A stretch of 64,000 bases of DNA, taken from assembly GCF_000012865.1 (NCBI RefSeq), contig NC_007503.1, forward strand, positions 992,001-1,056,000. Reading direction: 5' to 3'. Below, in pieces: positions 47,176 through 50,863 of the stretch (positions are counted from its first letter, which is position 1; the number at the start of each line of letters is the position of its first letter). The DNA comes from Carboxydothermus hydrogenoformans Z-2901 (lineage in GTDB: Bacteria > Bacillota > Z-2901 > Carboxydothermales > Carboxydothermaceae). The position numbers were made by a program, and so were the translations under genes. A model generated the notes under the pieces. The model ran no database searches and had not been told where the DNA came from. It saw only the letters and a list, made by a program, of their open reading frames with translations.

Positions 47176-47659
47176 TAATACTTTATTTTCTTTGGCCCAA
47201 GAAGTGCAGCGGTTGTTTATTGCTAAGAATTTAACTTTGGCAACGGCTGAATCGTGCACCGGCGGACTTTTAGGAGCGGTAATTACTGCTGTTCCCGGAA
47301 GTTCTCAATATTATTTTGGAGGGGCAGTAGTTTATGCCAATGAAGCCAAAGAAATCTTAACCGACGTGGATAAAGACCTTTTACTTAAAAAAGGTGCGGT
47401 AAGCCCCGAAGTTGCTCAAGGCTTAGCGTTGGGAATAAAAAATAAGCTTAAAACAACGGTAGGAGTGGGTATCACGGGAATTGCCGGACCTTCTGGGGGT
47501 ACACCGGATAAACCCGTTGGCTTGGTATATATCGGTATTGCGAATGTTCAGGATGTTAAAGCTTTTAAATATCAATTTAACGGTGATAGGCAGGAAATTA
47601 GAACGCAAACGGTAAAGGAGGCATTAAAACTTTTAATTCAAAATTGTTTTGACAATTAA
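47168..47659 (+). CDS. pncC: Nicotinamide-nucleotide amidase (CinA C-terminal domain only)
   Basis: 163 aa. Contains only the amidohydrolase domain of Cin[17 protein letters not shown] and [18 protein letters not shown]. It deamidates nicotinamide mononucleotide in NAD recycling. The N-terminal molybdopterin-binding-like domain seen in full CinA upstream of recA in many Firmicutes is absent and its place is taken by rimO. recA follows after a promoter. Confidence 0.92.
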
Positions 47660-47678
47660 ACCGGCGAAAAGTTATAAT
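47649..47678 (+). promoter_or_regulatory. Sigma-A promoter of recA
   Basis: TTGACA (47649-47654) and TATAAT (47673-47678), both consensus, are 18 bases apart. The -35 box overlaps the last codons of pncC. Confidence 0.88.
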
Positions 47679-48746: not shown

Positions 48747-49190
48747 TTGAGTAGTCGGGCTTACCAAAAAGCCTTAAACTACCTTTCCCGTGCCCTGCGG
48801 ACAACTGCAGAAGTGCGCCAGTATCTTTCAAAAAATGGTTTTTCCGATGAAGAAATTGAAGAGGCGATTTCCAGGCTTACTGCTATCGGTTATTTAGATG
48901 ACAAACGGTACGTGGAAAATTATCTTTTAAGTGGAAAGGCTTTAAGATACGGAATATACCGAATAAAATCTAAGCTTTTGCAAAAAGGAATAGATTTGGA
49001 ACTTTTAAATAATTTGCCGGTGGACGAAGAGGAGGAAGTTATTAAAGCAAAGGAGATTTTATTAAAGAAGTATAAACAGCTTGACCCAGAGGATTATGGC
49101 AAATATTACCGATTTTTGGTGGGACGTGGTTTTTCGCCGGCGGTGGCGCGAAAAGCAGTTTTCTTGACAGATGATAAGGAGAACGGGTAA
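48747..49190 (+). CDS. recX: RecA regulator RecX
   Basis: 147 aa helical-repeat protein that binds RecA filaments and limits their growth. ALNYLSRALRTTAEVRQYL, IEEAISRLTAIGYLDDKRYVENYL and GRGFSPAVARKAV are the three helix-triple repeats of RecX. TTG 48747 directly after recA implies co-transcription. Its 3' end contains the promoter of the next short transcript. Confidence 0.9.
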   Translation: MSSRAYQKALNYLSRALRTTAEVRQYLSKNGFSDEEIEEAISRLTAIGYLDDKRYVENYLLSGKALRYGIYRIKSKLLQKGIDLELLNNLPVDEEEEVIKAKEILLKKYKQLDPEDYGKYYRFLVGRGFSPAVARKAVFLTDDKENG

Positions 49191-49193
49191 AAT
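49164..49193 (+). promoter_or_regulatory. Sigma-A promoter at the end of recX
   Basis: TTGACA (49164-49169) and TAAAAT (49188-49193) are 18 bases apart. Transcription should start near 49200, giving a short leader or small RNA ahead of rny. Confidence 0.7.
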
Positions 49194-49199
49194 ATGGAT

Positions 49200-49290
49200 A
49201 GGTGAAAGTAGAATGGGACCTGCCGATTGGTTTTGGCCTGTTGGTAGGTTTCTTATTCTATTTCAGCCGAGTAGAAACTCGGTTTTTTTT
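49200..49290 (+). ncRNA. Candidate leader/small RNA upstream of rny ending in a terminator
   Basis: After the promoter, a long hairpin can form: AGAAT and ACCTGCC (49210-49214, 49218-49224) with GGTAGGT and ATTCT (49243-49249, 49255-49259). A terminator follows: CCGAGT (49267-49272), loop AGAA, ACTCGG (49277-49282), then eight T. The predicted transcript is about 90 bases and either ends there as a small RNA or reads on into rny. No known riboswitch class is recognised. Confidence 0.55.
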
Positions 49291-49317
49291 ATTAGCTACC
49301 CGATAGTAAGGAGGTGA
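49213..49317 (+). CDS. Possible 34-aa leader peptide upstream of rny
   Basis: ATG 49213, preceded by GGTGA at 49201-49205, opens a 34-codon frame that begins [17 protein letters not shown] and ends in a TGA lying within the AGGAGGTGA ribosome site of rny. The frame crosses both the hairpin and the terminator, as in translation-controlled attenuators; Trp-Phe-Trp codons lie in the hairpin loop. I know no homologue. It may be chance, but frame, spacing and stop position are suggestive. Confidence 0.35.
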
Positions 49318-49321
49318 AAAA

Positions 49322-50863
49322 TTGAATTTAATAACCGACATAATTATTGCTGTTGCTGGAGTTGGGGTTGGGGTTGCTGCAGGTTATGTTATCAGAAAAA
49401 ACATTGCTGAGGCAGCCATCGGTTCCGCAGAAGCTCAGGCTAAAAAAATAATTGACGAAGCAACAAAAGCCGCTGAAGCCAAGAAAAGAGAAGCGGTTTT
49501 AGAAGCAAAAGAAGAAATTTTAAAAATGAAAAATGAAGTAGAAAGAGAACACCGGGAAAGACGCCAGGAATTGCAACGTTTAGAGCGCAGGCTTCTTTCC
49601 AAGGAAGAAACCTTGGATCGGAAAATAGAAAGTTTTGAGAGAAAAGAAGAGCAGTTAGCCAAAAAGGAGCAGGAAATAGAGAATTTGCGGCAAAGCTTAG
49701 AGGAGACGCTGCAAAAAGAATTGGCTGAGTTAGAACGGATTTCGGGACTTTCTACCGAGGAGGCAAGGGAGCTCCTTCTAAAACAAGTGGAAGAAGAAGT
49801 TCAACAAGAAATGGCCTTATTAATCAAGGAAATTGAAACAAAGGCCAAAGAAGAGGCCGAAAAAAGAGCCAGGGAAATTATTACATTAGCAATTCAAAGA
49901 TGTGCTGCTGATCATGCGGCCGAAACCACAGTTACGGTTGTTGCCCTCCCCAATGATGAGATGAAAGGAAGAATAATAGGGCGTGAAGGTCGGAACATAA
50001 GGACTTTTGAATCTTTAACGGGTGTTGATTTAATTATTGATGATACCCCCGAGGCTGTTATTCTTTCCGGGTTTGATCCAATCCGCCGGGAAATCGCCCG
50101 ACGAGCCCTGGAAAAGTTAATCCAGGATGGGAGAATTCACCCGGCGCGTATTGAGGAAATGGTGGAAAGGGCTACCAAAGAAGTAGAGCAAGATATAAGG
50201 GAAGCTGGTGAACAAGCAGCTTTTGAGGTTAACGTTCACGGTTTACATCCCGAGATTATTAAACTACTTGGTAGGTTAAAATTTAGAACAAGTTACGGAC
50301 AAAATATTTTAAAGCATTCTATTGAGGTTGCCCACTTAGCCGGCTTAATGGCTGCTGAGTTGGGAGCTGATGTTGCTTTAGCAAAACGGGCTGGGCTTTT
50401 GCACGATATCGGGAAAGCCGTTGACCATGAAGTGGAAGGATCCCATGTGGAAATTGGGGTTGAGCTTGCTAAAAAATACCGCGAGCATCCGGAAGTTTTA
50501 CATGCAATTGCCACCCATCATGGTGATGAAGAGCCAAAAACAGTGGAAGCAGTACTTGTGCAAGCTGCCGATGCCATTTCTGCCGCAAGACCCGGAGCAA
50601 GGCGTGAAACTTTGGAAGCCTATCTTAAACGGCTCGAAAAATTAGAAGGAATTGCTAATGAGTTTGAAGGTGTGGAGAAATCTTATGCTATCCAGGCTGG
50701 CCGGGAACTAAGAATCCTGGTAAAACCTGAAAAGATAGATGACCTGGCTTCCGTTCGTTTAGCTCGGGAGATTGCTAAGAAAATTGAAGAAGAGGTGGAA
50801 TATCCCGGGCAAATAAAAGTTACCGTTATACGGGAAACCAGGGCAGTCGATTACGCAAAATAG
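49322..50863 (+). CDS. rny: Ribonuclease Y
   Basis: 513 aa membrane-anchored endoribonuclease that starts mRNA decay. N-terminal helix ([19 protein letters not shown]), long coiled coil (about 30-190), KH domain ([20 protein letters not shown]) and HD phosphohydrolase domain ([22 protein letters not shown]). TTG 49322 follows a strong AAGGAGGTGA. The rny-ymdB-spoVS order is that of B. subtilis, here with one gene inserted. Confidence 0.95.

Follow-up and report, generated by a model that had tools for sequence, protein, structure and literature searches.

A conserved hairpin between promoter and start codon of rny in Bacillota: a candidate termination and autocontrol element of the RNase Y gene

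In the 64,000 nt stretch of Carboxydothermus hydrogenoformans Z-2901 DNA analysed here (the window), the genes recA, recX and rny follow each other in this order. Between the end of recX and the start of rny, which encodes RNase Y, we located the following features:

48747–49190, + strand: recX, the upstream gene containing the promoter (ORF)
49164–49193, + strand: sigma-A type promoter TTGACA-N18-TAAAAT within the 3′ end of recX (−35 at 49164–49169, −10 at 49188–49193; 11/12 consensus positions)
49202–49306, + strand: overlapping GTG frame (ORF list)
49203–49265, + strand: long 5′-terminal leader hairpin predicted by RNA folding, restricted to the genus
49213–49317, + strand: 34-codon ATG frame with its TGA within AAGGAGGTGA, judged not to encode a conserved peptide
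49243–49260, + strand: GGTAGG and TTTCT motifs 5′ of the rny-leader hairpin, here inside the 3′ arm of the long hairpin
49265–49292, + strand: rny-leader hairpin AGCCGAGU-AGAA-ACUCGGUU (stem 49265–49284) followed by a U8 tract (T8 in the DNA), a predicted terminator (terminator scan)
49309–49321, + strand: rny ribosome binding site and spacer (sequence)
49322–50863, + strand: rny, RNase Y, 513 aa, TTG start at 49322 (TIGR03319 above cut-off, E = 1.4e-243)

The initial annotation had proposed a TTGACA-18-TAAAAT promoter, a long hairpin and an eight-T terminator for this region, and all three were found where it had placed them. The 34-codon frame with its stop codon in the rny ribosome site is present as well; it is preceded by a Shine-Dalgarno-like AGGTGA, and its coordinates confirm that the terminator lies inside it. 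The 94 bases from the predicted transcription start to the T-run (49199–49292) fold with −40 kcal/mol, corresponding to z = −7 against dinucleotide shuffles. The promoter-leader unit is present in a single copy in its own 2,401,520-bp genome, and a repeat element was rejected on this ground. Another promoter, a perfect 12/12 match (TTGACA-18-TATAAT, 47649–47678) again with a spacer of 18, is located just 5′ of recA.

We aligned the window leader with those of two congeners. In comparison with the more distant one (G002), identity was 96/101 (95%) in the leader, exceeding that of recX (70%), rny (83%) and the post-terminator spacer (6/16, 37.5%), and therefore the leader itself is under strong selection; judged by this conservation, the region is more than a chance arrangement. 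The promoter is kept in three congeners. Two of the five leader differences in G002 fall in loops and three in stems, all three stem changes still pair via G-U, and the two versions are predicted to fold alike. In the 34-aa frame of G002 we observed F→S and R→G replacements and a stop at codon 18, so the leader-peptide reading fails. Control by the Trp/Phe-rich peptide, suggested initially as a possibility, was thus not borne out, its frame being broken in G002 while the changes at paired bases preserve the RNA structure. The overlapping GTG frame resembles a one-helix membrane peptide and shows two silent and three replacement changes in G002. The long hairpin was not seen in the rny upstream regions of other families; one guess is that this genus-specific structure shields the 5′ end of the transcript from RNase J.

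The sequence upstream of rny was then read in 76 other loci and in the genomes of relatives, 166 upstream regions in all. In 90 of these regions (70 non-redundant), a CCGAG-loop-CUCGG hairpin immediately precedes rny; its carriers include the Desulfotomaculum group, Thermincola, Carboxydocella, Sporomusa and its relatives, and many further Bacillota families. The terminator hairpin is thus a feature wider than the genus. The pair outside the stem, which had not been used in selecting the hairpins, was A-U in 33, G-C in 27 and G-U in 10 leaders and thus paired in 70/70. Covariation was assessed on the hairpins together with six variants, e.g., CCAAG/CUUGG and GUCAAG/CUUGAC. Compensatory changes, sought in the stems upstream of rny, were found for the terminator hairpin: two-sided changes occurred in 8/9 pairs, a result equalled by 0 of 500 shuffles, and the paired fraction was 92.5%, in comparison with 28–49% in slid-partner controls (42–49% for a one-base slide). 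Across leaders the loop ranges in length from 4 to 11, which favours an RNA element over a DNA operator; the dyad was rejected as an operator because such a loop is unlike the fixed spacing of an operator. The recA/recX order precedes rny in the hairpin loci. We are highly confident that an rny-specific RNA element exists, and by its predicted fold and distribution it is a conserved structured 5′-leader element specific to an RNase gene.

A plain pattern search (CCGAGT..CTCGG..TTTT) in 101 genomes returned matches in 24 genomes, nearly all of them at rny. With a covariance model of 28 positions (R1), the top 20 matches in the same 101 genomes were all judged, by comparison of coordinates, to lie directly upstream of rny. 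Because this genome set overlaps the training sequences of R1, the search was widened to 398 genomes of the phylum, about 300 of them further ones, and the 62 top matches outside the training set were checked in the order of their E-values. For 52 of the 62, rny was contained in the fetched stretch, and in 50 of these the hairpin immediately precedes the gene; the other two are a match at the rny 3′ end and a locus (L239) with a hairpin that the simple pattern missed. One more of the 62 matches follows recA-recX on a contig stretch that ends before rny. In two members of family f19, G020 (C60:1347-1374) and L225 (from G288), R1 matches a CCGAG-type hairpin at the rny 3′ end and not upstream of the gene.

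Searches against Rfam gave no match at gathering score for the window and chance-level matches only for nine related loci and the local stretch. OmrA-B was rejected as an identity, since its 17.8 bits, against a gathering score of 40, are at chance level. RF00040, which we take to be the autoregulatory rne 5′ UTR leader (rne5) of enterobacterial RNase E, was considered as a relative by descent and gave no Rfam match at the rny leader. The leader thus matches no Rfam family, in agreement with the initial remark that it is unlike any described form of riboswitch. A description of the hairpin was not found in the literature searched, outside of which most subscription journals fell.

In 37 of the 70 non-redundant leaders, a promoter matching at least 10/12 consensus positions precedes the hairpin by 24–153 nt, against 2.95 expected from shuffles, and 33 leaders have an 11/12 promoter in front of the hairpin. 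Nearly all of these 33 promoters possess the full TTGACA and deviate solely in the third base of the −10 element (TACAAT, TAAAAT or TAGAAT). The hairpin and the rny match are separated by 33–176 bases, often <60; the shortest distances, down to about 33 nt, therefore leave no room for an intervening promoter. The layout in the window, with a promoter in the end of recX followed by leader, hairpin and rny, is by these predictions the general one. Among 93 non-redundant leaders, two motifs are enriched in the 45 nt preceding the hairpin: the G-rich TGGTAG (13 observed against 1.0 expected), located around −24 to −11, and the U-rich TTTCTA (15 observed against 2.0 expected), located around −16 to −5. 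A pseudoknot between the loop and upstream bases (AGAAC/GUUCU in two families, GUUUCU/AGAAAC here) was rejected, as it had a mean z of −0.2 against shuffles and is broken in G002. Taken together, the comparisons demonstrate, at the level of sequence, an rny-specific hairpin with the compensatory changes of an RNA stem, located between a predicted sigma-A promoter and rny and following G-rich and UUUCUA motifs.

The window and most other leaders share with intrinsic-terminator attenuators a GC stem followed by a U-tract between promoter and gene. At least six T among the nine bases after the stem are present in 53/70 leaders, and this group of about three quarters should terminate transcription. 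The other 17/70 have five or fewer, for instance the Sporomusa leader CUUUACCC, which retains stem and promoter despite a broken U-tract; promoters also remain in many of the leaders with a broken U-tract. Since the stem is kept where the U-tract is broken, termination is not its sole function. For the 33 leaders whose promoter is clear, the predicted probability of hairpin formation is 0.98 (0.94 in shuffles), the 5′ arm of the hairpin is paired before the 3′ arm emerges with a value of 0.47 (0.51 in shuffles), and no competing antiterminator was detected. The shortest leaders have about 17 bases 5′ of the hairpin. An upstream-sensor switch is therefore unlikely, given the high probability of the hairpin, a 5′ arm as free as in shuffles and such short leaders. 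The rny leader thus differs from typical attenuators of this kind in that no upstream sensor or antiterminator was found and the hairpin outlasts the loss of the U-tract.

RNase Y initiates bulk mRNA decay in most Gram-positive bacteria, and how it chooses its sites is debated. In Bacillus subtilis, RNase Y controls its own mRNA by cutting within the 164-nt 5′ UTR and the early coding region, at positions scattered in AU-rich RNA that follow no defined motif (PMC10303841). The present leader would resemble this system in a control by RNase Y exerted partly through 5′ UTR cuts; unlike the scattered cuts in B. subtilis, it holds a sequence-conserved hairpin common to many families. In Staphylococcus aureus, cutting by RNase Y is governed by the triplet immediately following the cut, NUN triplets such as CUA being among the best, and by a hairpin located a few bases further on, of which the base pairs and the sequence matter but the loop does not (PMC11321564). 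In Ruminiclostridium, a single stem-loop is both a processing signal and a terminator, and its specificity resides in the stem sequence (PMC10311766). The S. aureus gapR and saePQRS sites and the Ruminiclostridium cip-cel sites share with the rny hairpin a GC-containing stem of which the sequence is important, preceded by unpaired bases, and the cip-cel stem-loop is also a terminator, as the rny hairpin often is. However, these sites process the operons of other genes, whereas the present hairpin is located in the leader of rny itself. At rne, contrasted with rny before (PMC10303841), the gene for a major decay endonuclease likewise has a 5′-leader stem-loop suited to sensing the activity of its own enzyme; enzyme and RNA are unrelated in the two cases, the rny hairpin is in many leaders a terminator as well, and autocontrol through it is putative.

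The mechanism at the rny leader that we infer from these comparisons is as follows. The rny mRNA would start at the sigma-A promoter and pass through the hairpin, which, where a U-tract is present, would end most transcripts early (after about 90 nt in the window) and so keep the level of rny low. On read-through mRNA, the stem together with the preceding G-rich/U-rich strand would form a putative recognition or cleavage site for RNase Y, and an excess of the enzyme would destroy its own message through this leader site. By analogy with the systems above, we favour an action of RNase Y on its own leader, and the stem may instead be conserved for another RNA-binding factor. Deep mutagenesis of the B. 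subtilis cggR and glnR sites indicates that the downstream hairpin mainly stabilises the product and does not direct cleavage (PMC11780869). This result counts against recognition of the hairpin by RNase Y. We favour, at about even odds, the reading of 49164–49292 as the rny promoter and 5′ leader with a cis-acting hairpin as its key part, acting as a partial terminator in many species and as an RNase Y recognition and autocontrol site. Somewhat more tentative is the extension that the stem is an ancient, sequence-specific rny-leader element that allows RNase Y or a partner to sense its own level and that became uncoupled from termination in some lineages. If this extension is true, the element would correspond, for RNase Y, to the leader of RNase E, and it would provide a natural consensus substrate for an enzyme of poorly defined specificity. 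The conserved hairpin in the own leader offers a natural consensus for what RNase Y or a termination factor recognises, RNase Y autocontrol becomes testable outside Bacillus, and a widespread RNA element is added that is absent from the Rfam release searched.

The strongest competitor of the dual element, although we consider it rather unlikely, is a hairpin that acts as a transcription attenuator only, i.e., a weak terminator, constitutive or aided by NusA/NusG, that holds rny at a low level without any involvement of RNase Y. Such a function is in line with the U-tract in 53/70 leaders and with the near-certain hairpin and the missing antiterminator in the predicted leaders, but it does not explain why the hairpin, and in many cases the promoter, is retained in the 17 leaders with a broken U-tract, and termination does not require a conserved CCGAG/CUCGG stem sequence. 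The same sequence conservation across families would not be expected of an ordinary operon terminator and makes it improbable that the hairpin simply ends the recA-recX unit and insulates rny, which would then have another promoter. Although recA is found upstream in all hairpin loci with enough upstream sequence, as such a terminator would have it, strong promoters precede the hairpin and the 33-nt distances exclude one between hairpin and rny.

Two further readings concern the unit in the window itself. The production of a stable, trans-acting small RNA of ~90 nt would fit the very stable fold and the preservation of promoter, long hairpin and terminator in the genus, where the leader is 95% identical and the spacer to rny is not kept. 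Against it, hardly any bases of the folded leader are left free to pair with a target, the long hairpin is confined to the genus, and only the hairpin adjoining rny is kept across families; because this hairpin remains linked to rny, the free-standing small RNA of about 90 bases suggested initially is very unlikely. Ribosome-controlled attenuation through a Trp/Phe-rich peptide had been suggested by the open frame with AGGTGA in front and the terminator inside, and we regard it as the most improbable of all explanations, given the replacements and the codon-18 stop in the congener and the absence of a detectable antiterminator in the 33 leaders. We also know of no link between rny and the supply of Trp or Phe. 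What stands of the initial interpretation is a leader of rny that has a promoter of its own and a hairpin of the terminator type; control by a peptide does not.

Many clostridial rny genes are not preceded by the hairpin. The Ruminococcus-type rny leaders (L061–L067 and L071) are without the CCGAG hairpin, and in most of them GGCACCUUUGAGCUGAUU pairs with the rny ribosome site AGGAGGUGUC; by its predicted pairing, this leader type would be a different structure that hides the ribosome site. In three Lachnospiraceae-type leaders (L052, L054 and L056), a short perfect hairpin immediately 5′ of the start codon, AGGAG-GUG-CUCCU, contains the ribosome site.
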